Positions 17,619 through 60,226 of a stretch of DNA of 64,000 nucleotides are shown in pieces. This DNA is from a virus. The stretch is from the IMG/VR virus record IMGVR_UViG_3300036851_000176, positions 82,626 through 146,625 of that record. The stretch is one strand, 5' to 3'. The position numbers and the translations under genes are program-made. The stretch's first letter is position 1; every line of letters starts with the position of its first letter. Under the pieces are notes generated by a model. That model saw nothing but the letters and a program-made list of their open reading frames with translations, was not told where the DNA came from and made no database searches.

Positions 17619-18016
17619 TGGGCGGTCTATCCATCCCCGACCGGATTCTCAGTGAGGATGCCACCGAAAGGTGGTGTCCTTGCTGTGAGACCTGGAAGTT
17701 GATGGACCGCCAGCACTTCTATGTCGCCTCGAACACGAAAGCAGGATTTCGTCGGACGTGCAAGGCGTGCCAGAAATTGAAAGATGCACGCAATCGACAT
17801 CTCGAATACAACGGGTATGTCTACATGAATAGAGTCCGGCCGTGGCTGCGCGCTCTCGTCGAGAAACTCGGCTTCACCGGTGCAGCCGAAGCCCTCGGCG
17901 TCTGGAAAGGCCAATTGGCCGGATGGATGAGCAAGCGCCGCAGACGTATCCAGCGGCGCAACGCGGCCCGCATTCTCCGCGTGTGCGGAGAGCATGGGAT
18001 TCGCATCGCTGTTTAG
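17618..18016 (+). CDS. zinc-finger protein with C-terminal HTH-like segment
   Basis: 132 residues from GTG at 17618, overlapping the upstream stop. CPCC at about 19-22 and CKAC at about 52-55 form a treble-clef-like pair, the arrangement seen at the start of many phage HNH-type proteins, but no HNH triad follows. Residues 90-130 (AAEALGVWKGQLAGWMSKRRR) look like a DNA-binding HTH with a basic tail. A DNA-binding regulator is the best guess. Confidence 0.7.
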   Translation: MGGLSIPDRILSEDATERWCPCCETWKLMDRQHFYVASNTKAGFRRTCKACQKLKDARNRHLEYNGYVYMNRVRPWLRALVEKLGFTGAAEALGVWKGQLAGWMSKRRRRIQRRNAARILRVCGEHGIRIAV

Positions 18017-18017
18017 G

Positions 18018-18088
18018 CTGGCACGGAAGGAATCGAACCTTCATCACTCGGTTAACAGCCGAGGGTTTTACCGTTAAACTACACGCCA
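18018..18088 (-). tRNA. tRNA-Asn(GTT)
   Basis: Cloverleaf on the minus strand: acceptor TGGCGTG/CGTGCCA, anticodon loop CTGTTAA, T arm GGTTCGATTCC, discriminator G as usual for Asn. Confidence 0.9.
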
Positions 18089-18178
18089 TCGATTTACTGC
18101 TGTCGCAGTAGTTATTTCGTCAAACCGGCCAATTCCCTGGTCCAGGAAATTAGCCTTCGTGCAACGTTTCCGTTCAAA

Positions 18179-18254
18179 TGGGGGGTCGCCAGGGACTTGC
18201 ACCCTGCTCAACCAGAGTCACAGTCTGGGATCTCGCTGCCTAGATTTACGACCC
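18179..18254 (-). tRNA. tRNA-His(GTG)
   Basis: Acceptor GGGTCGT/GCGACCC, anticodon loop CTGTGAC. Discriminator C73 and an encoded CCA, the only clear CCA of the set. The T loop reads TGCAAGT, with G in place of U55. Confidence 0.85.
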
Positions 18255-18256
18255 AG

Positions 18257-18325
18257 CTGGAGAGGCAGGGGTCGAACCTGCGCTACGAGGTTCAGAGCCT
18301 CGCTGTCTACCATTAACACCCTCCA
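18257..18325 (-). tRNA. tRNA-Gln(CTG)
   Basis: Acceptor TGGAGGG/CTCTCCA, anticodon stem CGAGG/CCTCG around CTCTGAA, T arm GGTTCGACC, discriminator G. Confidence 0.88.
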
Positions 18326-18328
18326 ATG

Positions 18329-18414
18329 TAGGGAGACCACTCGCTTCCCACCCCGGCTTGGAGACCCCGGTTTGATGGGGGTTTATCCTCACGGGCCTTA
18401 GCCTTGTCCGTCTC
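18329..18414. other. tRNA-sized element with closing stem, unassigned
   Basis: Between tRNA-Gln and tRNA-Phe, the ends GGGAGAC and GTCTCCC pair perfectly across 86 bases, but no T loop or anticodon arm can be drawn. Either a decayed tRNA gene or a small structured RNA processed with the tRNAs. Confidence 0.35.
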
Positions 18415-18417
18415 CCA

Positions 18418-18490
18418 GTGGACCGAGAAGGAGTTGAACCTTCACCTCCCGCGCTTCAAGCGGGCGCTCTACCTCTGAGCTACCAGTCCA
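18418..18490 (-). tRNA. tRNA-Phe(GAA)
   Basis: Acceptor GGACTGG/TCGGTCC, anticodon loop TTGAAGC, D stem GCTC/GAGC, T arm GGTTCAACTCC, discriminator A. Confidence 0.88.
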
Positions 18491-18501
18491 TGTCTTGCTA
18501 G

Positions 18502-18570
18502 CGGGCCAGGAAGGAATCGAACCCTCTCCTAACGGGTTGGAGCCGTTTTGGACACCATGTCCTCTCGCCC
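18502..18570 (-). tRNA. tRNA-Trp(CCA)
   Basis: Anticodon stem AACGG/CCGTT around CTCCAAC, T arm GGTTCGATTCC, discriminator G as in bacterial tRNA-Trp. One acceptor mismatch (5-68). Confidence 0.85.
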
Positions 18571-18637
18571 AAGTTGGACGATCGTGCGCACCGGGGGAAT
18601 GCTCTTATCACCGGTGCCCAGTGCGCGCGTCGTCCGA

Positions 18638-18710
18638 TCAGGCTGAGAGGATTCGAACCTCTACCGCTCGCTCCCAAAGCGACCGTGCTGCCGTTGAACA
18701 CTACAGCCTG
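18638..18710 (-). tRNA. tRNA-Pro(TGG)
   Basis: Acceptor CAGGCTG/CAGCCTG, anticodon loop TTTGGGA, T arm GGTTCGAATCC, discriminator A. Confidence 0.88.
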
Positions 18711-18856
18711 TTGTGACTGTCTTCGCGGCTCGAACTTCGGTGCTTATGTGATGGTGCTTGAAGAGAGACGCGCAGACAGCGAATTAGACCCCTGGAAACC
18801 AGGGGGTATTCGGCTGATGCTGTTGCGATGTCATCTCGATCTTCATTGCGCCACCA
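18711..18856 (-). other. tRNA-operon leader, no clear gene
   Basis: Stretch between the promoter at 18857 and tRNA-Pro. It holds a short frame of 20 codons (18843 down to about 18781) ending in a hairpin (CCCCTGG/CCAGGGG), and no recognisable tRNA. It may be a transcribed leader only. Confidence 0.3.
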
Positions 18857-18885
18857 ACGTTACATGAATGGTCGTGGTCTGTCAA
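18857..18885 (-). promoter_or_regulatory. promoter for tRNA-Pro to tRNA-Asn run
   Basis: TTGACA (18885-18880), 17 bases, TAACGT (18862-18857) on the minus strand. Confidence 0.65.
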
Positions 18886-18974
18886 GCCGAGGCCGCTTGC
18901 TCAACCGCCAGTTTCCCAAGCGGCTCAGCGAAGCGGCCCAACACAAGGCCGATATTCCCAGTCGCCGCTGACAC
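18882..18974 (-). CDS. possible 30-residue small protein
   Basis: GTG-start frame (SAATGNIGLVLGRFAEPLG...) ending inside the -35 of the tRNA promoter. Ribosome site is too close to the GTG, so this is weak. Together with it, 18885-19040 shows no other gene. Confidence 0.25.
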   Translation of the reverse strand: MSAATGNIGLVLGRFAEPLGKLAVEQAASA

Positions 18975-19042
18975 GGCTCCTGACTGCCTCGGATCCGGTG
19001 TCAGCCGGAGAGCCGAGCGGGCGCTTGCGCCTCGGACACGCT

Positions 19043-19243
19043 TCAAACGTCTGGCATCGAGAGGAAGTCCTGGTAACTCTCCTGCATGTCGGCCAAGCGT
19101 TCCTCGAAAAACTCCCGAATCTCTTCTTCGCTGGCGCGAGGGATCAGAGCAGCAAGGGCATGGTTCATCTCGTCCGCTGCGTACTCTCGTGTTCTGTCGG
19201 GGATCTTCATGATGTGGGGTGGCAGACTATTTGAACGGCTCAT
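19043..19243 (-). CDS. small hypothetical protein
   Basis: 66 residues, GGAGG eight bases before the ATG. Helical, acidic C-terminal half (EEEIREFFEERLADMQESYQ). Sits alone between the tRNA operon and the tmRNA. No family recognised. Confidence 0.65.
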   Translation of the reverse strand: MSRSNSLPPHIMKIPDRTREYAADEMNHALAALIPRASEEEIREFFEERLADMQESYQDFLSMPDV

Positions 19244-19338
19244 GTGATGCCTCCGCTTAGCGGCCTGCCAGCGACCTTACGCACTGGTTCTGTTCCCACG
19301 CCAGCGTGCGCCCCGCGCGGCCCCGAAGGGCATTTCAG

Positions 19339-19658
19339 TGGAGCCGCCGGGTATCGAACCCGGGTCCGTCTCGTCCGTACAAACAGATCTTCTAGCAGCT
19401 TCGGGGTGGTATACGCCACCTCCACCAGGGCAGACCTTTGGTCTCCGCGTCACCGTTGAATGGGGTCGGTGTCCCGTCCTACTGGTACATCATCCCGGAC
19501 TTCTGTTCCTACCGGCCGGGGCGGCGCTCGTGGCCGTTAAGCCGCGAGAGGAAGCACGTATGCTTCGTCGTTTCGTTTGCCCTCCGGGCCGGTGCGGTAG
19601 GCCGCAACCCGCTGCGATCTCCTTGCCGTTTTCGAGGCGTCGAATCCAATTCGGCCCC
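19339..19658 (-). ncRNA. ssrA: transfer-messenger RNA (tmRNA)
   Basis: 320 nt. The 5' end GGGGCCGAATTGGATTCGAC matches the classic tmRNA start and pairs with the 3' end CGGCTCC-A. T arm GGACCCGGGTTCGATACCC near the 3' end. The internal tag frame reads KRNDEAYVLPLAA then TAA, ending in the usual LAA-type degradation signal, with the resume codon GGC or AAA. It rescues stalled ribosomes and tags their products. A phage copy can serve when host tmRNA is limiting; tmRNAs are known from some actinophages. Confidence 0.93.
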
Positions 19659-19665
19659 ACACGGG

Positions 19666-19693
19666 ACTATACACATTCCGGGCGTTTTGTCAA
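19666..19693 (-). promoter_or_regulatory. tmRNA promoter
   Basis: TTGACA (19693-19688), 16 bases, TATAGT (19671-19666). Transcription would begin at 19659 or 19658, the mature 5' end of the tmRNA, so little or no 5' trimming would be needed. Confidence 0.8.
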
Positions 19694-19947
19694 CCCACCT
19701 CGCGCCATATCCCTCGTTCGAGGTACCCGTGCCAGCCATCCTTGTTATCGGCCAACTTCTCCAGGATCGATGGAGAGACGGTCACGGTGCCGTCCTGGTG
19801 CTCGGTCACGTCCCATTCTTCGAGACGTGCGGGGCCAGATCCGTTCGGGAGGCAAACCCACAGGAATCTCGATGGGCCTCGGAAACAGTAGTCGCCCGCT
19901 TCGAGTTCCCACGGCAGCGTGTTATCTGGGCGTCGTCGTCCTTTCAT
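19690..19947 (-). CDS. DUF6527-like protein
   Basis: 85 residues from ATG at 19947. GDYCFRGPSRFLWVCLP, then VTVSPSILEKL and DGWHGYLERGIW follow the DUF6527 pattern (a small domain ending SPSI...WHGYL-dG-W) common in phages. A 9-bp hairpin (19957-19981) lies just upstream and could hide or regulate the start, which has only a weak ribosome site. Function unknown. Confidence 0.65.
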   Translation of the reverse strand: MKGRRRPDNTLPWELEAGDYCFRGPSRFLWVCLPNGSGPARLEEWDVTEHQDGTVTVSPSILEKLADNKDGWHGYLERGIWREVG

Positions 19948-20008
19948 GTGTTTACCGCAGACGACCCGCGCAAGGCGGGTCGTCGCGAGACTCAGGATCA
20001 CCTCCCCG

Positions 20009-20068
20009 TTAGAAGGGCCACTCTTCCTGTACGGCCACCGCTACGGGGAGGCCGTTGAGTCTTGCCAC
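20009..20068 (-). CDS. 19-residue leader peptide
   Basis: GTG start with GGAAGGAGGTGG upstream, a very strong ribosome site, and 19 codons (ARLNGLPVAVAVQEEWPF) to TAA. It lies just before the hairpin and start of the DUF6527-like gene, so it looks like a regulatory leader or a microprotein. Confidence 0.5.
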   Translation of the reverse strand: MARLNGLPVAVAVQEEWPF

Positions 20069-20114
20069 GTAGACCACCTCCTTCCTCCAACAAGGTGAGT
20101 CTACCGCAAAGTTT

Positions 20115-20143
20115 TTGGGCACAAAACATTGCAGTGGTACGCT
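20115..20143 (+). promoter_or_regulatory. leaderless promoter (plus strand)
   Basis: TTGGGC, 17 bases, TGG-TACGCT (extended -10), then six bases and the ATG at 20150. Confidence 0.6.
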
Positions 20144-20149
20144 AAAGGG

Positions 20150-20287
20150 ATGCCAATCGACCCCGAAACTGGACGCTACTGGACGCCGCGCTATCGATCG
20201 AAGTTTGAGGCGGTTCGAACCGTTGCCTCGTGCGTGTCTGCGGTTGGAACGATCTTCGTTCTGCTCAGAGTTTTCGGCAAGATCTAA
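20150..20287 (+). CDS. 45-residue single-pass membrane protein
   Basis: MPIDPETGRYWTPRYRSKFE, then a hydrophobic segment (ASCVSAVGTIFVLLRVF) at residues 25-42. A lone plus-strand gene inside the minus-strand tRNA region with its own leaderless promoter. Size and topology would suit a small holin-like or inhibitory peptide, but this is a guess. Confidence 0.65.
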   Translation: MPIDPETGRYWTPRYRSKFEAVRTVASCVSAVGTIFVLLRVFGKI

Positions 20288-20288
20288 G

Positions 20289-20373
20289 CGGCGGGTGAGG
20301 GGATCGAACCCCCACAGGTGTTACCCCATCACCGGGTTCAAGCCGGATAAGCACGCCAGCCATGCGACCCGCC
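20289..20373 (-). tRNA. tRNA-Ser(TGA)
   Basis: Class II tRNA with long variable arm; acceptor GGCGGGT/ACCCGCC, anticodon loop CTTGAAC, T arm GGTTCGATCC, discriminator G. Confidence 0.88.
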
Positions 20374-20445
20374 GAGTGGACGATGTAACGCATTTTGCGT
20401 CACTCTGTCCATTCAAACCATTCCGCAATCGGAACAATTATGAAA

Positions 20446-20526
20446 TGCGCACCCCGGGATTCGAACCCGGACGCCTCGCGGCACCAGCCTCTCAGACTGG
20501 CGTGTCTACCGTTCCACCAGGCGCGC
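20446..20526 (-). tRNA. tRNA-Leu(GAG)
   Basis: Class II; acceptor GCGCGCC/GGTGCGC, Leu-type D arm GGTAGACACG, anticodon stem CCAGT/GCTGG around CTGAGAG, discriminator A. Confidence 0.85.
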
Positions 20527-20529
20527 AAG

Positions 20530-20559
20530 TGTCAAGTTTTATGGCAAGAAAACTTGACA
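20530..20559. repeat. 11-bp inverted repeat between tRNA genes
   Basis: TGTCAAGTTTT and AAAACTTGACA, 8 bases apart, perfect. Each arm contains TTGACA, but no -10 is well placed on either side. Possible operator or processing hairpin. Confidence 0.5.
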
Positions 20560-20650
20560 AAGCGGAAGGCCGAGGTCACGATCCCCACGCCTTTCGGCGC
20601 GATCCGGCTAGCAACCGGTCCCCGGGCCATCCCAGGTTGACCTTCCGTAG

Positions 20651-20724
20651 TCCCCACGCCAGGATTCGAACCTGGATCCCTCCGGTTTGAGCGGAGTGCG
20701 TCTGCCGGATTGCGCCACGCGGGG
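20651..20724 (-). tRNA. tRNA-Leu(CAA)-like, class I body
   Basis: Acceptor CCCCGCG/CGTGGGG, anticodon stem CTCCG/CGGAG around CTCAAAC, T arm GGTTCGAATCC, discriminator A. The variable region is only about 4-5 bases, while bacterial Leu tRNAs are class II. Charging identity is therefore uncertain. Confidence 0.75.
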
Positions 20725-20734
20725 CTATGTCGAG

Positions 20735-20821
20735 TACGGGAGGCGGGAGTCGAACCCGCACGTCCTTTCGGACACCGATTTCTGAGACCGGCGCGTCTAC
20801 CGAGATTCCAGCCACTCCCGT
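20735..20821 (-). tRNA. tRNA-Leu(CAG)
   Basis: Class II with long variable arm (GTCCGAAAGGAC); acceptor ACGGGAG/CTCCCGT, anticodon loop CTCAGAA, discriminator A. Confidence 0.88.
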
Positions 20822-20829
20822 ATGTCGAG

Positions 20830-20902
20830 AGCCGATGGCAGGAATCGAACCTGCGTGGACGGGGTTGCAATCCGTCGCCTGGGACCACTCGGCCACATCG
20901 GC
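20830..20902 (-). tRNA. tRNA-Cys(GCA)
   Basis: Acceptor GCCGATG/CATCGGC, anticodon loop TTGCAAC, U73 discriminator typical of Cys. Confidence 0.88.
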
Positions 20903-20906
20903 TTGG

Positions 20907-20977
20907 TGGGCGCCCTAGGATTTGCACCTAGTCCTGCGGGGTTACGGCCCGGAATGCTCTAACTACACCAGACGCCC
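20907..20977 (-). tRNA. tRNA-Tyr(GTA)-like, unusual loops
   Basis: Acceptor GGGCGTC/GGCGCCC, anticodon stem CCGGG/CCCGC around CCGTAAC. Position 33 is C instead of the near-universal U, the T loop is TGCAAAT (G55), and the body is class I where bacterial Tyr tRNAs are class II. The anticodon call depends on that stem choice. Confidence 0.55.
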
Positions 20978-20985
20978 AAGTAGGT

Positions 20986-21005
20986 CAGTCCGCCGAGGCG
21001 GACTG
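20986..21005 (-). terminator. hairpin upstream of tRNA-Tyr
   Basis: CAGTCCGC-CTCG-GCGGACTG, an 8-bp stem capped by CTCG, with no U tract. It lies in the leader of the tRNA operon between promoter and first tRNA. Confidence 0.4.
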
Positions 21006-21303
21006 GCTAAGACTTAGGCAATACAACTGGTGCGCGAACATAACGTGCCGGAGTATAGACGAAGATTGCTGATTTCGCAAGTATCTTCTCTACTTGAGCA
21101 ATCAGAGGTACTCGACGTGAAGAGTTCCGCCGAAGGGGAGGGTGCCATCGAAGAGGAACATTCCAAGTTCGTCACCTTGGTAGGCCAGAATCGAGGGTAT
21201 TTTCCTCGCGATCTTCTTGCTCCAGCGCCCACGCCGAGATGATCTTTCCAAGAGGAGGATCCGGAAAGAGGGGACGACCCAGTTCGTCTCGATCGTCGGG
21301 CAC
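21006..21303 (-). other. tRNA-operon leader and short frames of doubtful coding
   Basis: Two short minus-strand frames read like protein: one from GTG at 21302 (PDDRDELGRPLFPDPPLGKI, 43 codons) and one from ATG near 21144 (FLFDGTLPFGGTLHVEYL, 19 codons, AAGGTGACG upstream). Both are plausible microproteins continuing the operon of 21304-21954, but neither is proven. Confidence 0.35.
21052..21080 (-). promoter_or_regulatory. promoter for the Tyr-to-Ser tRNA run
   Basis: TTGCGA (21080-21075), 17 bases, TATACT (21057-21052) on the minus strand. Confidence 0.7.
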
Positions 21304-21564
21304 TTACTTCGCCTGGAACATCGGCTTCAGCCGAGGTCGCGTCTCTGGCTTAGGGTCTCCCTCGTCCTCTGGGTAATCCACCGGCTGGCCCGAGATGCTG
21401 ATGTCTCCTGTCCCGTTTTCTACAATCCTGTTCACGTTGTATCGGACGCGAAAGTCGTTCGAGTAGACATCGTTGTCGATTTCTAGGGTCTCTCCTTCTC
21501 CCGGAAGCAGCACATACCCAACCGCGAAGACAAAGCAGTTATCCGTGTGGTTCGTGAGGATCAT
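21304..21564 (-). CDS. hypothetical beta-rich protein
   Basis: 86 residues (HTDNCFVFAVGYVLLPGEGE, then IDNDVYSNDFRVRYNVNRIV), an all-beta style like a virion surface or fibre domain. Follows the 128-residue gene by three bases. No family recognised; a minor structural protein is the best guess. Confidence 0.65.
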   Translation of the reverse strand: MILTNHTDNCFVFAVGYVLLPGEGETLEIDNDVYSNDFRVRYNVNRIVENGTGDISISGQPVDYPEDEGDPKPETRPRLKPMFQAK

Positions 21565-21567
21565 GAC

Positions 21568-21954
21568 TCAGGCCGGGTAAGGAACGATGTTGTACAGGAC
21601 CACCAGAATCCCGCTGGCTACCGATCCTCCCGTCACATGAGCACTGATCTTTCCATCCTCGCTGGCAATGGATTTGATCCCGGATCCGAGTTCCGCCAAA
21701 ACCGCGTAAGACGTGGCCGGAATGGAAGAGCCGGATGTGATCGAGTTGTCGGCTCCGATCCCTACACCCAACGATCCAGATCCAGAGAACGCTTTCAGGA
21801 CGACTACGGTGCTGACGATTGCCCAGCCCTTCGGAATCAGATCTCCGAATTCGTAGGTTCCGGCAGAAAGACCGGGGCGAGCATCGAAGGTGGCGACCTT
21901 TGAGGTTTGTCCACCCTTCATCAGGGCGTAAATCTCTGAAAGGGGAGCAGTCAT
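21568..21954 (-). CDS. hypothetical beta-rich virion-like protein
   Basis: 128 residues. TGG-TACACT lies six bases upstream of the ATG at 21954, a leaderless promoter. Sequence is Gly/Ser/Val-rich (VLKAFSGSGSLGVGIGADNS, ending GILVVLYNIVPYPA), in the manner of tail-fibre or decoration domains. Location among tRNAs, far from the tail genes, is odd. Confidence 0.65.
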   Translation of the reverse strand: MTAPLSEIYALMKGGQTSKVATFDARPGLSAGTYEFGDLIPKGWAIVSTVVVLKAFSGSGSLGVGIGADNSITSGSSIPATSYAVLAELGSGIKSIASEDGKISAHVTGGSVASGILVVLYNIVPYPA

Positions 21955-21981
21955 GGTGCGAGTGTACCATGCAAAATCAGG

Positions 21982-22054
21982 AGCCGGGGAGAGGAGTCGA
22001 ACCCCCACCGCAACCGTACAAAGGGTGCATGCTAGCCATTAACACCACCCCGGC
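21982..22054 (-). tRNA. tRNA-Thr(TGT)
   Basis: Acceptor GCCGGGG/CCCCGGC, anticodon loop TTTGTAC in a stem with one mismatch, T arm GGTTCGACTCC. Confidence 0.8.
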
Positions 22055-22110
22055 TCGATCGTTCACTGGTGCAAGAAACTACGTTATGACTTAGTTTTCC
22101 GCACCAGTAG

Positions 22111-22183
22111 AGGCCCTAGGAGGATTCGAACCCCCGACTCACGCGGTAGAAACGCGCAGCTCTGTCCCCTGAGCTACAGGGCC
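22111..22183 (-). tRNA. tRNA-Arg(TCT)
   Basis: Acceptor GGCCCTG/TAGGGCC, D stem GCTC/GAGC, anticodon stem GCGCG/CGCGT around TTTCTAC. Confidence 0.88.
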
Positions 22184-22269
22184 TTGGTAGTCATTACACG
22201 TACGATGTATCTGTCAGGCGCTAGTCTCCCTTGACCACTCCTGCCTCTCGTCCGCTGGTACCCGCTCGC

Positions 22270-22306
22270 GAGCGCACGCCGGAATCGAACCGGCCGTCTC
22301 CTGAAG
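22270..22306 (-). pseudogene. tRNA remnant (3' half only)
   Basis: GCCGG-TTCGATT-CCGGC T arm followed by GTGCGCT, with nothing of the D or anticodon arms upstream; tRNA-Lys(TTT) abuts it. A truncated tRNA gene. Confidence 0.5.
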
Positions 22307-22378
22307 TGGATCCCCGAGGACTCGAACCCCGATCTCATGGCTTAAAAGGCCAGACTCTGCCTGTTGAGTTAGAGATCC
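22307..22378 (-). tRNA. tRNA-Lys(TTT)
   Basis: Acceptor GGATCTC/GGGATCC, D stem ACTC/GAGT, anticodon loop CTTTTAA, discriminator A. Confidence 0.88.
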
Positions 22379-22420
22379 ATGTGCCGCAATTGGAAGGGGA
22401 TGCGGCCAACCGTCTTCGAG

Positions 22421-22493
22421 TGGACCGGCCGAGATTCGAACTCGGATCGCACGCGGTGCAAGCGCGGCAGGTTCCCATTACGCCCACCAGCCC
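22421..22493 (-). tRNA. tRNA-Ala(TGC)
   Basis: Acceptor GGGCTGG/CCGGTCC gives a G3-U70 pair, the alanine identity element; anticodon loop CTTGCAC; discriminator A. Confidence 0.88.
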
Positions 22494-22504
22494 AGGTGTT
22501 GCTA

Positions 22505-22579
22505 TCGGCCGAGGAGGATTCGAACCTCCGACTGACACGGGTTCGAAGCCCGCCGCTCTGTCCACTGAGCTACCAGCCG
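22505..22579 (-). tRNA. tRNA-Arg(TCG)
   Basis: Acceptor CGGCTGG/TCGGCCG, D stem GCTC/GAGC, anticodon loop CTTCGAA, T arm GGTTCGAATCC, discriminator A. Confidence 0.88.
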
Positions 22580-22587
22580 TTATGTAG

Positions 22588-22660
22588 TGCGGCGAGCAAG
22601 AGTCGAACTTGCGTCCTCCGGGTTCGCAACCCGGCGCTCTGTCCTCTGAGCTATCGTCGC
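22588..22660 (-). tRNA. tRNA-Arg(GCG)
   Basis: Anticodon stem CCGGG/CCCGG around TTGCGAA. Bacteria normally read CGN with inosine-bearing ACG; an unmodified GCG reads CGC/CGU directly. One A-C mismatch in the acceptor (4-69). Confidence 0.83.
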
Positions 22661-22709
22661 GCGTGTCATGCAATACACGTTTTTCATGTACAACGTGACA
22701 GTCTTGCAG

Positions 22710-22782
22710 TGGCGCCCCGAGGACTTGCACCCCGTTCGCGCGGCTTAAGAGGCCGGACTCTGGCTCGTTGAGTTAGAGCGCC
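22710..22782 (-). tRNA. tRNA-Lys(CTT)
   Basis: Acceptor GGCGCTC/GGGCGCC, anticodon loop CTCTTAA, discriminator A. T loop TGCAAGT with G55. Confidence 0.85.
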
Positions 22783-22790
22783 ATATGTAG

Positions 22791-22861
22791 TAGGCATCCA
22801 GAGACTTGAACTCCGATCTCCTGGGTGTAGGCCAGGTGTCCTCCCATTGGACGAGACGCCT
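22791..22861 (-). tRNA. tRNA-Val(TAC)
   Basis: Acceptor AGGCGTC/GATGCCT, anticodon stem CCTGG/CCAGG around CCTACAC; position 33 is C rather than U. T arm GAGTTCAAGTCTC. Confidence 0.75.
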
Positions 22862-22874
22862 ATGTTGTTTCGAG

Positions 22875-22947
22875 TGGACCGGGGAGCGATCGAATCTCCC
22901 GCCTCTCCTTTATCAGAGGAGCGCTCTGCCGTCTGAGCTACCAGTCC
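22875..22947 (-). tRNA. tRNA-Ile(GAT)
   Basis: Acceptor GGACTGG/CCGGTCC, anticodon stem CTCCT/AGGAG around CTGATAA, discriminator A; T stem has one A-G mismatch. Confidence 0.85.
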
Positions 22948-22968
22948 ATGTTCCGTGCTGGACTGCGG

Positions 22969-23064
22969 CTATGCGACGGTAATGCGCGTCGCGGCCAGCA
23001 CGGTGCGGACGACGGTTCTCGTCGTTCGCTTGAGTTTCCTCTGTGCTGTCCGCGTGAAGTTCAT
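22969..23064 (-). CDS. 31-residue basic microprotein
   Basis: NFTRTAQRKLKRTTRTVVRTV, then a short hydrophobic end. The ATG is seven bases after TAAGGT of a strong promoter, so it fits the leaderless pattern; it precedes tRNA-Ile. Very basic, perhaps RNA-binding; no family. Confidence 0.5.
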   Translation of the reverse strand: MNFTRTAQRKLKRTTRTVVRTVLAATRITVA

Positions 23065-23071
23065 GATCGTG

Positions 23072-23099
23072 ACCTTAGCAGGTTTCGAGAAAAAGTCAA
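23072..23099 (-). promoter_or_regulatory. leaderless promoter before 31-residue gene and tRNAs
   Basis: TTGACT (23099-23094), 16 bases ending CTGC, TAAGGT (23077-23072). Confidence 0.7.
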
Positions 23100-23100
23100 G

Positions 23101-23173
23101 AGCCACCGATCGGATTTGAACCGATCCTACAACGTTGGCAACGTTGCGTGCTACCGCTAGACACTACGGTGGC
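23101..23173 (-). tRNA. tRNA-Gly(GCC)
   Basis: Acceptor GCCACCG/CGGTGGC, anticodon stem CAACG/CGTTG around TTGCCAA, U73 as in bacterial Gly tRNAs. Confidence 0.88.
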
Positions 23174-23302
23174 AAATGGAGAGCCTAGGTCCTCAGTTAT
23201 TCCCCGCCGGGGAGGACTCCACGGCATCACTCCTAAGAGTGGCGGGCCAGATGTCTCCGATGTCAACTCTCCTGGGAGACCCACGGTCTTTGGTTTTTCC
23301 AG

Positions 23303-23376
23303 AGCGCCTGCTCGGATTCGAACCGAGACTGCCAGCTTGGAAGGCTGGCGTGCTGACCGTTAAACACTACGGGCGC
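23303..23376 (-). tRNA. tRNA-Gly(TCC)
   Basis: Anticodon stem CCAGC/GCTGG around CTTCCAA, T arm GGTTCGAATCC, U73; one acceptor mismatch (6-67). Confidence 0.86.
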
Positions 23377-23404
23377 GTGCTTGCCATGGTACCTGAAACG
23401 AGAG

Positions 23405-23476
23405 CGGGTCTACGGAGGATCGAACTCCGATCTGTGCCTCGACAGGGCACCGTCCTAGCCATTGAACGACAGACCC
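23405..23476 (-). tRNA. tRNA-Asp(GTC)
   Basis: Acceptor GGGTCTG/TAGACCC, anticodon stem GTGCC/GGCAC around CTGTCGA, discriminator G as usual for Asp. Confidence 0.88.
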
Positions 23477-23570
23477 AAGGATGAGGAGTGAGCGGTGCAA
23501 ATCGACCACCCTCATCAGCAACTCCTGTCCGGATGCATCCCCGGCTCAGGTCAGCAGCGTCCTACTGAGT

Positions 23571-23643
23571 GTCCCGACCGGGATTCGAACCCGGGTCGCC
23601 GCCGTGAGAGGGCGGTATCCTAGACCAACTAGACGATCAGGAC
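23571..23643 (-). tRNA. tRNA-Glu(CTC)
   Basis: Acceptor GTCCTGA/TCGGGAC, anticodon stem CCGCC/GGCGG around CTCTCAC, discriminator A. Confidence 0.88.
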
Positions 23644-23695
23644 GTATCGGGGTTCTTCATCTCCGGGCCTGAACCCGAAGCGAGTGCTACCCCAG

Positions 23696-23769
23696 TGCCA
23701 CCGGCGGGATTCGAACCCGCATCGCCGAGCTTGAAAGGCTCGCATCCTAAGCCATTAGACGACGTTGGC
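23696..23769 (-). tRNA. tRNA-Glu(TTC)
   Basis: Anticodon stem CGAGC/GCTCG around CTTTCAA, T arm GGTTCGAATCC, discriminator A; one acceptor mismatch (5-68). Confidence 0.87.
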
Positions 23770-24057
23770 AAGTCCCCTTGCGGGGAGCGCCCAGTCCGCT
23801 TGCCCTCTACCGGGGGCCGACCGGGCAATGATTGAGGCACCTGCGGGCCGTGCCTCCCTGCGCCCTCCGGAGAATCCATGAGGCTGCGAGCGGTGGAGAG
23901 TCGATCGCGCCTGGGATGTCAATTCGGGAGGGTCATGACTCCCTCCCGACCTGGCCGTCGCCAGGATTTCAGTGTTGCTCCGTCGAGCACCCCTCGGCCC
24001 GGACAACCGCCGGGACGGAAACGCGAGAGGCCACTGTCTCCGGGTTTCCCCTTCGAG
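23770..24057 (-). other. structured spacer without recognisable gene
   Basis: 288 bases between tRNA-Met and tRNA-Glu. It holds a perfect 9-bp hairpin (23924-23949, TCGGGAGGG arms) and smaller hairpins at 23841-23859 and 23798-23826, and no good frame. Could be a small RNA co-processed with the tRNAs. Confidence 0.4.
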
Positions 24058-24130
24058 TAGCGGGTACGGGAGTCGAACCCGCTGTCTTCGGCTTATGAGG
24101 CCGCTGTGGAAGCCGTTTCACTCCCCCGCT
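24058..24130 (-). tRNA. tRNA-Met(CAT)
   Basis: Acceptor AGCGGGG/ACCCGCT, anticodon loop CTCATAA, T arm GGTTCGACTCC, discriminator A. Elongator Met, initiator and Ile2(CAT) cannot be told apart with certainty. First gene of the tRNA cluster. Confidence 0.8.
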
Positions 24131-47179: not shown

Positions 47180-47379
47180 TCCTCTCCTAGAACGTCCGCT
47201 AGAAAGTCGTCTACATTCTTGATCGGAGGACGGGCCAGGATCTCTTCGGATGCCAGGGATCTTGGGTCGCGGTCAGCTGGTATGCACTGACCTTCGTGGC
47301 CCTCGTTGAGGATGCAGCGCTGGTTCATCTGCCCGTCGTAGATCTCGTGAGGACAACGAATGTCCGAGAAGGTGCTCAC
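47176..47379 (-). CDS. small Cys/His protein
   Basis: 67 residues from GTG at 47379. IRCPHEIYDGQMNQRCILNE then GHEGQCIPAD: a C..C-x3-GH-x3-C pattern shared with the 38409 gene. No family. Confidence 0.6.
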   Translation of the reverse strand: MSTFSDIRCPHEIYDGQMNQRCILNEGHEGQCIPADRDPRSLASEEILARPPIKNVDDFLADVLGEE

Positions 47380-47603
47380 GATGGATGACCCTCTTGTCCG
47401 CGAGCGAGGACTCGGGACTCGGCGTAGCGAGCGTGCAAGACGGCAAAATTCCCTTCGAGGAGAGCGCCTTCGCATATGTCGCACAGCGAAACCGACTCTC
47501 GGTACGGATCTCTCTGAGAACCTTTGTCCGAACCGACAGGTACGCCCCTGGCGCCCAGGCTCAGACAATTTAGGCACAGCCGGACTCCGGGAATGTCGCT
47601 CAC
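47376..47603 (-). CDS. zinc-ribbon microprotein
   Basis: 75 residues from GTG at 47603. LCLNCLSLG and LCDICEGALL give two Cys-x2-Cys knuckles 30 residues apart. Confidence 0.6.
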   Translation of the reverse strand: MSDIPGVRLCLNCLSLGARGVPVGSDKGSQRDPYRESVSLCDICEGALLEGNFAVLHARYAESRVLARGQEGHPS

Positions 47604-47752
47604 GCCAGTCGCCTCTTGGCTTCTCTGAGCATCGACTCGGACTCCTCCAAAAGGACATCTCGGCTGATGGCGTGCGGAACCTTGTACGAGTCGATCAAAT
47701 AGACCAGCGCGAGTCGAAGGAGGTTCGCTGTCAACTTCAGTTGCTCGATCAC
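47600..47752 (-). CDS. hypothetical helical protein
   Basis: 50 residues from GTG at 47752 (GTGA overlap with the gene before it). LTANLLRLALVYLIDSYKVP then a charged helix. A longer reading from a TTG at 47857 would run across the neighbouring frame and is less likely. Confidence 0.5.
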   Translation of the reverse strand: MIEQLKLTANLLRLALVYLIDSYKVPHAISRDVLLEESESMLREAKRRLA

Positions 47753-47874
47753 CAGCCATGCCTCTTGATGTATGCGAGACGCCAGCGGAATCGTGTCCGA
47801 AAAGGGATGTCTTTCCACCCATTCCAACAGTTCCGGCACGAACAGAAGTCGTGGCAAGGACCCTCGATGCTCAC
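47749..47874 (-). CDS. 41-residue Cys-rich microprotein
   Basis: GTG at 47874 overlaps the upstream stop and the TGA overlaps the next GTG. GPCHDFCSCRNCWNGW packs four Cys and a His into 13 residues, then a basic aromatic end. Junctions and Cys spacing support coding. Confidence 0.5.
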   Translation of the reverse strand: MSIEGPCHDFCSCRNCWNGWKDIPFRTRFRWRLAYIKRHGW

Positions 47875-48071
47875 AAGTATTTCCCGATCTCAGGCATGTC
47901 CTTCATGACTGATGCAAGGCCGAGTACCTTGGCCTCTTCCTTAAGCCTGCGACGACGGAAGATCCTCCAAGCCGGAGTCTGGTCCAGTTCTTGTCGAGTG
48001 AGATCGTGGGCTTTGGACAGAGGCTCGGCCTCCAGTTCTCCTGTCCTTGGGTTCACTCGCATTTTGCTCAT
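47871..48071 (-). CDS. hypothetical basic protein
   Basis: 66 residues from ATG at 48071 (ATGA). RVNPRTGELEAEPLSKAHDL then WRIFRRRRLKEEAKVLG. No family. Confidence 0.6.
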   Translation of the reverse strand: MSKMRVNPRTGELEAEPLSKAHDLTRQELDQTPAWRIFRRRRLKEEAKVLGLASVMKDMPEIGKYL

Positions 48072-48265
48072 GCGAGGCTGAACTTCCAGTGAGCCTCTGA
48101 CACATGCCCCGCGTGTCGGGCTGGCTCTCTCGAACCTTCGCAGTTCTCGTCCGAAAAGAGACCGCCGATCCTGTAGGCCCGATGAGTCCCTACTGTCCCG
48201 TCCTTGAGCAGCGGCGCTTTGTAGCCGCAGCGATGACACTGAACCTGGATTCGTGGGCCTCTCAC
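48068..48265 (-). CDS. zinc-finger microprotein, leaderless
   Basis: 65 residues. GTG at 48265 is exactly six bases after TAGGCT. VQCHRCGYKAPLL and later Cys/His residues suggest a zinc site. Confidence 0.65.
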   Translation of the reverse strand: MRGPRIQVQCHRCGYKAPLLKDGTVGTHRAYRIGGLFSDENCEGSREPARHAGHVSEAHWKFSLA

Positions 48266-48271
48266 GTTCTC

Positions 48272-48315
48272 AGCCTAGGAGGGTGGTGACACCCTGTCAA
48301 TCCCTCGAACGAGGT
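48272..48315 (-). promoter_or_regulatory. leaderless promoter with two palindromic operators
   Basis: TTGACA (48300-48295), 17 bases, TAGGCT (48277-48272). The spacer is the palindrome GGGTGTCACCACCC, and immediately upstream lies a copy of the right-arm palindrome (48300-48315, TACCTCGTTCGAGGGAT on this strand). Confidence 0.7.
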
Positions 48316-57176: not shown

Positions 57177-57632
57177 GTGAAGGTCGAGACCCCCTTCGGA
57201 ACGCTTGCGGACGATACGCTCCCCTTCGAGGGCGAGCGGGTCCTAGTCGAGACTGCGCCGTGCGGCTGCAAGGCGTTCTCGGACGATACGGGCGTGCCGT
57301 GCGTGCTGCACGATCCTAACGGGCTGATGTTCCATATCGCTTTCGACCTTGGCGGCTGTCGCTTCTCCACGAAGCGCGCGACCCTCGCGCAGGCGCGCGA
57401 GTGCATCGCGAGCATGGACGCGCCGCAGGGCTATAGCAGCCACTCAGCCACGATCTACGAATGGCGCGCTCGCGCGGTTGACGGCAAGCCGTACCTGCAT
57501 ACGATCGAGCGGTACTGGTTCGGGGAGTTGGTTGACCCCTCTACGGCCGCACGCGCGCCGCTGTCGCCTCTGCTGGACTCAGACGACCCGGACTATGACC
57601 CTGACCTGTACGTGGCGCAGGTGGACGCATGA
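57177..57632 (+). CDS. hypothetical protein
   Basis: 151 residues, GTG start directly after the previous stop. CGCKAFSDDTGVPCVLHDPN has a Cys/His cluster; KPYLHTIERYWFGELVDPST later. No family. Confidence 0.65.
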   Translation: MKVETPFGTLADDTLPFEGERVLVETAPCGCKAFSDDTGVPCVLHDPNGLMFHIAFDLGGCRFSTKRATLAQARECIASMDAPQGYSSHSATIYEWRARAVDGKPYLHTIERYWFGELVDPSTAARAPLSPLLDSDDPDYDPDLYVAQVDA

Positions 57633-57823
57633 GGCAGAATCGCGCACCGTGGCAGACGATCCAAGGGCAGTCGCCCAGGGTCACGCGGCGACGGCCGGAC
57701 CGCCCAGGCAACGTCCAGGCGCGCGAGGGCTGCGACCGCTGCGAGTGCGGCTGCAAGTATTGGGAAAATGACCGCTGCATCGACTGCGGCGCACACGTCA
57801 GCATGGTCGAACTAGCGCGGTAA
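57629..57823 (+). CDS. zinc-ribbon protein
   Basis: 64 residues (ATGA). CDRCECGCKYWENDRCIDCG: seven ligand-type residues in 20, preceded by a basic N-terminus. Confidence 0.68.
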   Translation: MRQNRAPWQTIQGQSPRVTRRRPDRPGNVQAREGCDRCECGCKYWENDRCIDCGAHVSMVELAR

Positions 57824-57874
57824 ATCCCCCTTCTAGGGGATAGCATCGTCCGATGGGATGACGATAATGAGACT
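57824..57874 (+). promoter_or_regulatory. palindrome-controlled promoter of a structured RNA
   Basis: Palindrome 57824-57841 (ATCCCCCTTCTAGGGGAT), 21 bases, GATAAT (57863-57868), six bases, predicted start 57875. Unlike its sister promoters it is not followed by a start codon. Confidence 0.7.
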
Positions 57875-58500
57875 GTAAGCGAGATACGGAGTCAAGCGAA
57901 ACTCCCTCTGTCTCACCGGCCACCACCGAGGCCGGGGTTCAAGACTCAGTGAGAGGTCGGGTGGAAGAGAATGCCTCGATTTTGAGCGTCCGGGCATGCG
58001 CGGCTGTTGCCCCTAAGGTCACACCGCTTCAACCTACCCGGACCGCTCTCCAAGGATCGGACCACCCCGCATCGGGCAGCCGAGACTCCGCGACATACCC
58101 GCGTCGAGTCGGTTGCGGACGATCCTTAGAGAGCGGCGACACCGCTCCGACCGAACCTAATTAGTCGAGGCATGAGAGACACGCGAGCACCGTGAAGTAC
58201 CGTCGCAAGTAACCCTACGAAGCACCGCTGACGGCTAACGACCACGACTTTTCCGAGATAACGAATCCTGCCCAGGGCAAGCCATAGGTAACGCTCTGTT
58301 GCGCTATGCCTGCGCTACCCAAAGCGATTCTCCCCGAGTCAAGCGATCCCTGAATGAACGAGTGTGGAGGGCGAACGGTAAGGCGAGTGAAGCGGTAACA
58401 CGCGCGAGTCTGAGCCGAGAGGATTCCGGGAGTGCGCACGAACGGAGGATGGTAGGCGACGGCGGACGCGCGCTCGCGTGCCTCTCATGCCTCGGCCGAC
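57875..58500 (+). ncRNA. large structured non-coding RNA
   Basis: About 625 nt without a credible frame and with many complementary blocks. A 24-bp stem (58164-58187 with 58472-58495, one mismatch) encloses about 285 nt. A 16-17-bp stem (58042-58058 with 58120-58136) encloses 60 nt with its own CCGA-ACTC/GAGT-CGG stem. 57956-57964 pairs with 58033-58043. Local hairpins at 57916-57935 (CCGGCC/GGCCGG), 57992-58012 (GGGCA/TGCCC) and 58275-58312 (CATAG/CTATG). This is the size and style of ornate phage RNAs such as GOLLD and ROOL, but no family match could be tested. Confidence 0.7.
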
Positions 58501-58512
58501 GAAAGGAAATTC

Positions 58513-58689
58513 ATGCTCGAGCTTCTGGACGCACTTCGGCAGTTGAGCGACAATCGCTCAGCAGTCGATTCGGCGCTGACTTCTGCGATCTTCGCGATTG
58601 CGAAGGATCACGGCATCGGTGCAACCGAGTTGGACGGCAAGGCGAACGAACTTGCGCAGTACGGCGGCGCAGTCATCTACTACCCCTAG
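58513..58689 (+). CDS. 58-residue protein after the structured RNA
   Basis: LELLDALRQLSDNRSAVDSA then KDHGIGATELDGKANELAQY. GACGAAAGGAAATTC before the ATG. It follows the long closing stem of the RNA by 17 bases, so it may be expressed from the same transcript. Confidence 0.6.
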   Translation: MLELLDALRQLSDNRSAVDSALTSAIFAIAKDHGIGATELDGKANELAQYGGAVIYYP

Positions 58690-58696
58690 CAGGCTC

Positions 58697-58740
58697 TCGC
58701 GCGACTGGCTCTCGTCGGGTTCGATTCCCGAACGCGCGAA
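58697..58740 (+). other. tRNA-like minihelix (acceptor stem plus T arm)
   Basis: TCGCGCG and CGCGCGA pair; between them only 11 bases and a perfect T arm TCGGG-TTCGATT-CCCGA. D and anticodon arms are absent. Could be a tRNA-mimic end of the upstream RNA, a remnant, or an att-like core. Confidence 0.5.
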
Positions 58741-58896
58741 ATTTCCGGCCTACCAACGGCCTAATGAGCGTTGGCGCGTGGGCAACAGTACACCAGGACA
58801 CGCGGCGCATCGGAGTTGCATCGATCCGTTGCCACGGTAGGCCAACAAGTCTGCGCTACGGAGGGCACTCTACTCACTCCGGGTACCACGCGCGTC
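58741..58896 (+). other. base-paired stretch, probable RNA element
   Basis: GGCCTACC (58748) pairs with GGTAGGCC (58836), enclosing AACG/CGTT and GCGTG/CACGC stems. No frame. May extend the structured RNA region. Confidence 0.4.
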
Positions 58897-59277
58897 ATGC
58901 CTCGTAAGCCTCTGACGGCGGCTCGCCCCGCGATACTAGATCCCCCTCGCCATGCGCGCAGCGCGGCGGCTGTTCTCGGTCTCTATGGGTCGCTCCCATG
59001 GGCATCGGGACGCCGCGTCACTCTCTTCGAGGGCCGTAGACGTGCGATCGCATGCCCCTGCGCGTCCCTCGTAGCTTTCAAGGAAGCCCTGTCCCGGAAC
59101 GATCTTGCCCGGGATCTGAGCGCGCCCGTCCGCGCGCTCCTGGGACAGGGCGGTCGCTTTGCGGAGGCTGAGACCGTGGATACGCCAGTGGCGGACCGTA
59201 CACGGCCCACACAGATCCTCCGCAAACTTTCACTCGATCAAGGGATTGCGCGCGAGAGCGCCGCAGCCGATCGATAA
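58897..59277 (+). CDS. hypothetical protein
   Basis: 126 residues from ATG at 58897. RVTLFEGRRRAIACPCASLV, FKEALSRNDLARDLSAPVRA. Ribosome site is weak; codon use is coding-like. The C-terminus spans the palindrome at 59229. No family. Confidence 0.5.
   Translation: MPRKPLTAARPAILDPPRHARSAAAVLGLYGSLPWASGRRVTLFEGRRRAIACPCASLVAFKEALSRNDLARDLSAPVRALLGQGGRFAEAETVDTPVADRTRPTQILRKLSLDQGIARESAAADR
59229..59275 (+). promoter_or_regulatory. palindrome with weak promoter before second structured RNA
   Basis: Palindrome 59229-59246 (TTCACTCGATCAAGGGAT) followed by TTG; 22 bases on stands GATCGA, and GATAAG four bases later. Weaker than the other promoters. Confidence 0.45.
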
Positions 59278-59720
59278 GTCACGGCGATAGGAGTGGGGCA
59301 AGCGCCCGGAACACTCACAGCGGACGCGGCTGGATCGCCGTACAACCTTCCCCGAGGCTGATGGGAGCGCTTGCGGACGCTGAGCACCTAGGACAGCGGC
59401 CGGTTACTAGTGAAACCGTGCCCCGGACCTGCGGGTACCGGGGATCGCAAGCGACTCCCATGAGCTTCGGGCTCAGCCGAGACAAGAGGCATCCGAGGAT
59501 CGTGCGCGCGACGTTGGCGCGTTGCGAATCACCGTATCGCTTGGAGACTGACCAGCCATCGCTGGGTCCTCCGGGAGCATCCACGGCAGGTTACGACTGC
59601 CCACGATTTCCCGCCAGGATGCCTCTTGCCTCGGCGCAGGTCACAGGGTGGCATGTGGCAATCCTCGGCCACCGCGCTATCGACGCGCGGACTGAGCGCG
59701 AGTTAGGTCTCGTTCACCGC
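59276..59720 (+). ncRNA. second large structured RNA (candidate)
   Basis: TGGGAGCGCTTGCG (59359) pairs with CGCAAGCG-A-CTCCCA (59448), enclosing hairpins CGGTT/AACCG and CCCCGG/CCGGGG; GAGGCTGA/TCAGCC closes outside it. AAGAGGCATCC (59483) pairs with GGATGCCTCTT (59618) across about 125 nt. A 143-codon frame crosses the region but its sequence is constrained by the pairing and it is probably not translated, except perhaps near 59652-59760. Confidence 0.55.
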
Positions 59721-59731
59721 CTGCGTCGAGA

Positions 59732-59788
59732 ATCACTCAAACGGGTGATTGAAAAGCCCACGGAATTGCCGATAATGAGAGTACAGAG
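59732..59788 (+). promoter_or_regulatory. palindrome-controlled promoter without ATG
   Basis: Palindrome 59732-59749 (ATCACTCAAACGGGTGAT) followed by TGA, 21 bases, GATAAT (59771-59776), six bases, start near 59783. The next possible start codon is TTG at 59789. Confidence 0.7.
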
Positions 59789-59920
59789 TTGATCCAGACC
59801 ACAACCGAAGCGGCTCTCGCCAGAGAAGCAAGGCCAACCGTGAGGGGAAGATCAGCCAGAAAATCGAAAGCACCCAGGGCAGCGGCACCAACGCCGAGGA
59901 TGAGAGAGGCCACTAGGTGA
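59789..59920 (+). CDS. possible 43-residue basic protein
   Basis: TTG start six bases into the transcript; TTEAALAREARPTVRGRSAR then SKAPRAAAPTPRMREATR. Ala/Arg/Pro-rich. An untranslated RNA is the alternative. Confidence 0.35.
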   Translation: MIQTTTEAALAREARPTVRGRSARKSKAPRAAAPTPRMREATR

Positions 59921-59975
59921 CCCCTTGAAGCGCTCGATCTAGTTACCCCCGTTGAGACCCCTCGAAAGGGGGATG
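59895..59975 (+). repeat. copy of the element at 55720-55805
   Basis: GAGGCCACTAGGTGACCCC and CGCTCGATCTAGTTACCCC repeat the order and most bases of GTGGCCACTAGGCGACCCG and CGCTCGATCGAGTTACCCC at 55.73 kb. Both copies lie just before a palindrome-controlled promoter. Confidence 0.6.
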
Positions 59976-60007
59976 GTGCTGGTCGCCAGGAATCCGATAC
60001 TGAGGGC
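59957..60007 (+). promoter_or_regulatory. palindrome-controlled leaderless promoter
   Basis: Palindrome 59957-59974 (ACCCCTCGAAAGGGGGAT), 21 bases, GATACT (59996-60001), six bases, ATG 60008. Confidence 0.75.
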
Positions 60008-60139
60008 ATGCAGAAGAGAACGAAACCCGGCAAGTTCTACGTGATGGGCCGCAGGCTCCCGCTCACGGTCGCAGGCGAAGGCCGAGGACAAGGCGAAGCG
60101 GTCTCAGAAGCGACAGGGCGAGCGAGCATGGAAGCGTGA
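60008..60139 (+). CDS. 43-residue protein, leaderless
   Basis: QKRTKPGKFYVMGRRLPLTV then AGEGRGQGEAVSEATGRASM. Basic start. GTGA junction with the next small frame. Confidence 0.6.
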   Translation: MQKRTKPGKFYVMGRRLPLTVAGEGRGQGEAVSEATGRASMEA

Positions 60140-60226
60140 CCTTGGCTAGACGGTCGCGCAAGCATCGCGTCGTGCGCGTGACAGGCGGAAGGGTTGCCTT
60201 CACGAAACACAAGCCGCATCCCTGAC
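60137..60226 (+). CDS. 29-residue basic microprotein
   Basis: TLARRSRKHRVVRVTGGRVA then FTKHKPHP. Starts in a GTGA overlap. Very basic, probably nucleic-acid binding. Confidence 0.45.

Follow-up and report, generated by a model that had tools for sequence, protein, structure and literature searches.

Apart from tRNA and tmRNA, few structured RNAs are known from phages, and what they do is an open question. GOLLD RNAs are roughly 800 nt or more in length and combine a conserved 3′ domain with a variable 5′ domain in a homo-oligomeric cage, ROOL RNAs are about 600 nt long and lie near tRNA islands, the ~600-nt OLE RNA is chromosomal, and the pRNA of phage phi29, which binds the portal and is required for packaging, is small (~120-174 nt), with heterologous loop pairing. 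GOLLD is a proven homo-oligomer with kissing loops, ROOL has a conserved quaternary kissing loop, and OLE RNA forms a symmetric homodimer (PMC12286853). The dimer initiation site (DIS) of HIV-1 is a hairpin with a self-complementary, GC-rich 6-nt loop flanked by purines, and forms a homodimeric kissing complex (PMC7357161). Highly expressed non-coding RNAs have also been described in cluster A mycobacteriophages (PMC10986025).

The locus described here lies in a 64,000-nt stretch of viral DNA (hereafter the window), the terminal part of a virus record of 146,625 bases (IMGVR_UViG_3300036851_000176, positions 82,626 to 146,625). Positions 58164-58496 of the window (333 nt, plus strand, as are all RNA features below) run from the 5′ arm to the 3′ arm of a closing helix, P0, and are a member of an uncatalogued, strongly conserved family of structured non-coding RNAs of phages, identified by a covariance-model match, the P0 arms and homologues. 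None of the 4227 Rfam families matches this RNA. The window returned only tRNAs and one tmRNA, with no noteworthy match in 57600-60200 at a cut-off as loose as E <= 10, and 13 homologous loci gave nothing beyond a nearby tmRNA and chance matches at E <= 1. Over the same regions and at the same thresholds there was no match to the GOLLD, ROOL, OLE or pRNA models, and tmRNA and tRNA models did not match inside the RNA. We found no description of the RNA in the open-licence literature, and rate it a new family within the broad kind of structured, probably oligomeric phage RNAs.

Comparison with the described systems shows where the likenesses end. Like GOLLD, the RNA is phage-borne, ornate, non-coding and found in tRNA-rich phages, but the family is less than half the size of GOLLD (255-406 nt), with neither a covariance-model match nor a conserved linker tRNA. 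ROOL is likewise a phage-borne ornate RNA, whereas the new RNA is smaller, has other signatures and helices and does not match the ROOL model. With OLE it would share the homodimeric state proposed below, but OLE is chromosomal and there is no sequence or model match. The palindromic hairpin loop recalls the HIV-1 DIS, which is compared as a mechanism only, the DIS being an element of a viral genome and not a separate conserved RNA. The phi29 pRNA is a phage RNA that assembles by loop-loop pairing, as proposed here, and some members of the new family adjoin terminase genes; the pRNA is however smaller and pairs heterologously, and the new RNA has no constant link to packaging genes. The cluster A RNAs are also actinophage non-coding RNAs of unknown function, but cluster A phages are outside the 190-192 named-phage records that carry the RNA.

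Homologues were sought by several routes. Alignment of rIIA proteins yielded 34 viral loci, and in the closest of these (L013 and L015) the RNA is absent from the interval upstream of rIIA. A whole-record nucleotide search of the rIIA relatives gave one homologue (G005 357-527, matching 58228-58259 and 58340-58461 of the window, E = 4e-9), and this comparison exposed the blocks CTGACGGCTAACGACCACGAC and GCGATCCCTGAATGAA. Exact 16-mers from both blocks, and later degenerate versions, were sought in 2.9 million IMG/VR contigs, leaving about 25-30 distinct homologues from uncultivated viruses after removal of chance matches and duplicates. By BLAST, the RNA is present in 190-192 named-phage records, all of Mycobacterium (Mycolicibacterium) phages, with Bixzunavirus (cluster C1, Bxz1-like, e.g. 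I3, ET08, Sebata, Tonenili) and Myrna as carriers. In these genomes the RNA gene mostly lies under ‘hypothetical protein’ calls, which are inconsistent, and otherwise has no call over it. Direct nucleotide search found no near relative of the window region itself among named phages.

A covariance model of the family, R1, matches the window at 58194-58469 (161.6 bits, E = 6e-40). Its E-values, which are rough, were 1e-18 to 1e-25 on members left out of its building (C1, C2, L065, L075, L080) and 1e-18 to 1e-40 on most of L144-L164, likewise held out. Each of 26 member records searched with R1 holds a single full-length copy (26/26); further short matches in C1 and C2 correspond to this RNA's own 3′ hairpin, set apart by an insertion, and there is no second copy in the window or in the whole genome. 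R1 has no significant match in 33 rIIA-bearing relatives, and the RNA is lacking in the rIIA relatives among Streptomyces Stanwilliamsviridae, to whose rIIA that of the window virus is ~35% identical. Among cellular genomes, a 16-mer scan of 84,980 species gave 40 GTDB loci, none with a credible R1 match; the best candidate, L126 (E = 7e-4), falls in sequence with the look of an ordinary coding gene. Plasmids gave no match, nor did any close relatives emerge from seeded protein scans with rIIA, the 58-aa ORF downstream of the RNA and the capsid protein.

Covariation carries the case for the RNA. Folding energy was set aside as evidence, the region not being exceptional: z = -1.7 for the conserved RNA, and z = -2.5 for 57875-58512 on the plus strand against -3.3 on the opposite strand. 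In the main alignment, made with MAFFT from sequence alone for 14 members, double-sided changes occur in 27 of 34 base pairs, and 94.4% of cells pair across the named helices (P3, Pb, P1, P2, P5, P6) and the loop palindrome. The covariation value was 0.609, compared with a mean of 0.163 in 500 shuffles, none of which reached the observed value (0/500), and it fell to 0.086 or less when the partner was slid by 1-3 columns; relatedness among members is taken into account by the slid registers but not by the shuffles. An RNAalifold consensus of the same alignment shows compensatory change in 23 of 33 pairs. With 29 members the value was 0.603 (0.148 shuffled) in an alignment that was fitted to the model and so leans towards it by construction.

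The individual helices differ in how much they vary. P3 (58198-58202 with 58384-58389, the 3′ strand lying inside GGCGAGTGAAG) has compensatory changes in 2 of 5 pairs (AU/GC; GC/AU/CG) and 2 invariant pairs. The short helix Pb (58213-58215 with 58369-58371) covaries in 3/3 pairs, and P1 (58222-58227 with 58359-58365, the window copy having a bulged A on the 3′ side) shows double-sided changes in all 7 of its 7 pairs. P2 (58245-58250 with 58341-58345) is the base of a hairpin of variable length (58251-58340). Towards the 3′ end, P5 (58414-58416 with 58455-58457; 3/3 pairs covary) is followed inwards by P6 (58425-58428 with 58443-58446; 4/4 pairs covary), the stem of the proposed kissing hairpin. 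Many G-U pairs occur in the other helices of the RNA in the 29-member alignment. Two signatures lie within this core: TGACGGCTAACGACCACGAC (58229-58248) is invariant or nearly so in all members, and GCGATCCCTGAATGAA (58343-58358) contains GCGAYCCCTGAAYGAA in nearly all. Since TGACGGCTAACGACCACGAC (in part) and GCGATCCCTGAATGAA doubled as search seeds, which biases the set towards members with intact signatures, their invariance is in part built into the search; members were found without recourse to the helices, P0 or the loop. No protein-coding conservation is seen across the RNA, as the most conserved 20-mer has stops in two frames, and indels and compensatory changes dominate.

P0 pairs 58164-58188 with 58472-58496 (25-nt arms, a stem of 23-25 bp, 96% complementary), with a score of 21.9 against a shuffle maximum of 15.2. 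In a gapless scan (an RNAduplex-based version joined everything and was dropped), a P0 of 23-42 nt was found in 24 of 29 members, built from unrelated sequences and starting 62-79 nt before the signature; the scan did not find it in L063, L055, L094, L151 or L162. Where P0 is clear, the RNA measures ~255-406 nt from arm to arm. Of 29 members, 7 have a -10 box (at least 5/6) in the 50 nt that precede P0, against 3 of 246 control windows (p = 7e-6); for some of the family at least, transcription thus begins close to P0 and yields the RNA as a separate unit. Directly upstream of P0 in the window copy there is no such box. The nearest candidate is the GATAAT at 57863-57868 (plus strand), ~300 nt upstream, a possible -10 element from which this copy would be transcribed within a longer precursor; an identical GATAATGAGA is found again at 59771, as is GATAATGAG at 60611 and 62805.

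These limits redraw what the first-pass annotation had presented as a single folded RNA of about 625 nt, in a transcript of up to 900 nt, under a palindrome-controlled promoter. A genuine structured non-coding RNA with covarying stems is there, and neither of the two outcomes that the annotation named as refuting it, stems lacking covariation or coding conservation across the region, was obtained; but the unit is 333 nt, and the stretch as claimed mixes three things: a non-conserved part (57875-58163), the conserved RNA (58164-58496), and a gene and minihelix that most relatives lack. Both of the long stems it listed exist. The 24-bp stem is P0 of the family, whereas the 16-17-bp stem, a 17-nt hairpin in the 5′ part (58043-58059/58120-58136, 94%), has no counterpart in homologues. 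The GATAAT is likewise present, as is the palindrome TCCCCcttctaGGGGA just upstream of it (57825-57840, no strand assigned), but a generic sigma-70 scan misses this element and it is ~300 nt from the RNA. Coding signal is absent from 57824-58512 under a codon model whose training set was the genome's own long ORFs; 58690-60193 is likewise without a gene, and the sole exception across both stretches is the predicted 58-codon ORF (58513-58689, plus strand, 17 nt past P0), which scores 0.21 per codon, like real genes, and has no family match and no relative by seeded scan. The acceptor/T-arm-like minihelix (58698-58738, plus strand) can also be read directly, with a weak mascRNA-type score (E = 8.6). 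Only 5 of 31 members have a T-arm-like element within 900 nt downstream, in one case in a non-tRNA-like context, where ~2.7 would be expected from loci including tRNA-rich ones. The ORF and the minihelix were rejected as family parts, being absent from most relatives.

The 8-nt loop of the P6 hairpin, GUGCGCAC (58432-58439), is self-complementary, and so is that of every other member in which the register could be matched. Hairpins were located by their stem and the frame G-(A or C)-N8-(G or A)-A, palindromy not being used, and all 8 of 8 positions are self-complementary in 26 of 26 register-matched members with seven different loop sequences: GTGCGCAC, GTGGCCAC, GTTGCAAC, GTCCGGAC, GGTGCACC, GCTGCAGC and, with a G-U pair, GGTGCATC. 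The chance of self-complementarity for one 8-mer is ~0.5%. Six members off the standard register were judged by eye, and their loops hold self-complementary 6-8-mers (GTGCGCAC in L074; GTGCAC in L080, L154 and L142; ATGCAT in L162 and L065). In the 14-member alignment the loop palindrome is paired in 100% of cells, with double-sided changes in 3 of 4 pairs; pair 3-6 switches among G-C, T-A and C-G, and pair 4-5 between C-G and G-C. L084 and L089, which are 97.5-98.3% identical, differ at 7 positions in 275 nt, and 4 of these differences convert GTGGCCAC to GTCCGGAC, a clustering in the loop with p = 1e-5. As in the HIV-1 DIS, a self-complementary hairpin loop is thus maintained by compensatory change. 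Calculated duplex energies are -9 to -14.5 kcal/mol for each loop with itself, far stronger than with most other loops.

Since the inner pairs 3-6 and 4-5 are impossible in cis, the RNA probably kisses a second copy of itself and is probably a homodimer held by its P6 loops. A loop kept for self-recognition while its letters drift or switch, as in the DIS, would be the economical reading of this pattern, and a self-complementary kissing loop suggests homo-oligomerisation; the RNA may or may not work in the way of GOLLD/ROOL. In three cluster C2-like members (L067, L068 and L096), a second hairpin, GGGGAGTCATGACCCC, has a palindromic loop, TCATGA, that is invariant in all three, and there more than a dimer could form.

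We consider it likely, on the evidence taken jointly, that the window RNA belongs to an undescribed family of ~255-410 nt, present once per genome in large actinobacterial phages, whose P0-enclosed core and always self-complementary P6 loop would serve a homodimer acting in trans. P0, a long near-perfect helix, would join the ends of the RNA, probably also as an RNase III-type maturation stem, and would enclose the conserved core of P3, Pb, P1, P2, the TGACGGCTAACGACCACGA / GCGAYCCCTGAAYGAA junction and P5. The 3′ hairpin P6 would then present its loop, and two copies could kiss in the manner of the DIS, giving a stable particle or scaffold of RNA that is produced in the course of infection. 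We favor such a stable homodimeric (or larger) particle acting in trans, a state structurally established for OLE, ROOL and GOLLD (PMC12286853). A more tentative extension, which we hold to be possible but doubtful, is that of a compact RNA self-assembling through a rapidly switching loop, such that the RNA of each phage would pair with like copies but not with the RNA of close relatives; the result would be a phage-specific particle, serving as scaffold, decoy or part of packaging, that resembles none of GOLLD, ROOL and pRNA. If the self-recognition loop does have a function of its own, the RNA family would be categorically new. Loop diversification between near-identical phages raises the matter of self versus non-self RNA recognition in co-infection. 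The function is directly testable, since Mycobacterium smegmatis supports the growth of the ~190 sequenced phages that carry the RNA, and the self-complementary loop suits a compensatory-mutation test of homo-oligomerisation.

There are other possible explanations for what the RNA is or does, and the surroundings of the gene bear on several of them. A packaging RNA like the phi29 pRNA, acting as an oligomer with terminase and portal, is unlikely. The pRNA itself assembles by kissing-loop oligomerisation, and genes for terminase large subunits, of different families, lie beside the RNA in L072, L080 and L057, as do capsid and portal/protease-type genes in L162; these are 3 (terminase) and 1 (head genes) of the 19 loci with examined neighbors. 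Most neighbors are unrelated: the window RNA lies 2 kb upstream of rIIA, the copies in C1/C2 phages sit among small genes, and at other loci there is an exonuclease, a methyltransferase, a phosphoesterase or nothing recognizable. Palindromic loops would moreover favor dimers over rings, and the pRNA, at ~120-174 nt, pairs through heterologous loops. The same discordance of neighboring genes that leaves packaging as a minority idea argues against a cis-regulator. We regard a riboswitch-like or attenuator leader of the downstream gene as improbable: P0 is often followed by a codirectional ORF (at 58513 in the window, and in L065, L069, L145 and L157), but the downstream genes are unrelated among members and in several loci on the opposite strand or far off, and an independent RNA would better explain the long closing helix, the promoters at the 5′ end of the RNA and the trans-type loop complementarity. 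That the RNA is a new ribozyme or a catalyst of RNA processing, with dimerisation in a structural role, is similarly improbable; hatchet and VS ribozymes dimerise, and the invariant junction residues and elaborate core would suit a catalyst, but no cleavage site or product is apparent.

The remaining alternatives concern the palindrome, the family and the extent of the RNA. Perfect 8-bp palindromes are typical of DNA sites, and the loop might act as the site of a dimeric protein, or in recombination or replication, and not by kissing. This we find very improbable, in that the palindrome is always in the loop of a covarying stem of an RNA whose other helices are rich in G-U pairs, and its sequence diversifies even between near-identical phages, which a single protein site would not tolerate. 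That the RNA is a divergent GOLLD or ROOL, the likeness proposed in the first-pass annotation from size, stems and phage/tRNA context, has next to no probability left. Phage context, an ornate fold and proposed self-association are shared, and phages of such kind carry tRNA islands and tmRNA; against this, neither model matches (E <= 10 in the window region, E <= 1 at 13 loci), and 255-410 nt compares with ~600 nt for ROOL and more than 800 nt for GOLLD. The window RNA is ~34 kb from its tRNA island, and most member loci are without a nearby tRNA. Finally, there is a small chance that the functional RNA is the whole transcript drawn earlier (57875-58740), or one reaching 59740. Most of 57824-60190 is devoid of coding signal, 57875-59740 folds with z = -4.5, and in L063 the RNA is succeeded by a T-arm-like element and then a tmRNA. 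However, neither the ~290 nt upstream of P0 (57875-58163) nor 58690-59740 has a counterpart in any homologue, and R1 matches 58194-58469 only.

Several further non-coding stretches were observed in the window. Downstream of the 58-codon ORF, 58690-59740 is ~1 kb of strongly folded sequence without coding signal (z = -4.0), which ends at the second GATAATGAGA (59771) and has nested long stems, with 59476-59494 pairing with 59617-59635 (95%) and 59351-59369 with either 58991-59009 or 59455-59471. At 52980-53600, upstream of a helicase gene, is a GC-rich non-coding region with many GGCCGTCTAACGGCC-type repeats, and 53101-53300 has the strongest folding in the scan (z = -6.9). The codon model kept no gene in ~3.5 kb at 47180-50680, where minus-strand genes switch to plus-strand.

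The tRNA island (18016-24130) holds 24 ARAGORN tRNA genes, two further Rfam tRNA hits and the tmRNA, whose gene (19338-19658) is separate from the RNA described here and whose predicted tag, ETTKHTCFLSRLNGHERRPGR, is unusual and lacks a terminal LAA. A tmRNA scores above the cut-off in 7 of 26 member records and is within ~1.3 kb of the RNA in G038 and G045; in L074 it is also downstream of the RNA. The closest homologue, L063, has on its reverse strand (~430-2060, reverse-complement coordinates) a long, apparently non-coding unit with the RNA, the T-arm-like element within a GGCTTGAAGCAGAG/CTCTGCTTCAAGCC stem, the tmRNA and a terminator-like hairpin, in that order. Directly 3′ of the RNA in L055, a tRNA-like gene (574-733; ARAGORN tRNA-Tyr, anticodon ATA) sits within a ~24-bp hairpin. 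In the rIIA relative L015, a non-coding stretch (2903-3800) adjoins an 18-tRNA island, carries the repeat CTCTACTCATAGAGTACC twice and is possibly another phage RNA.
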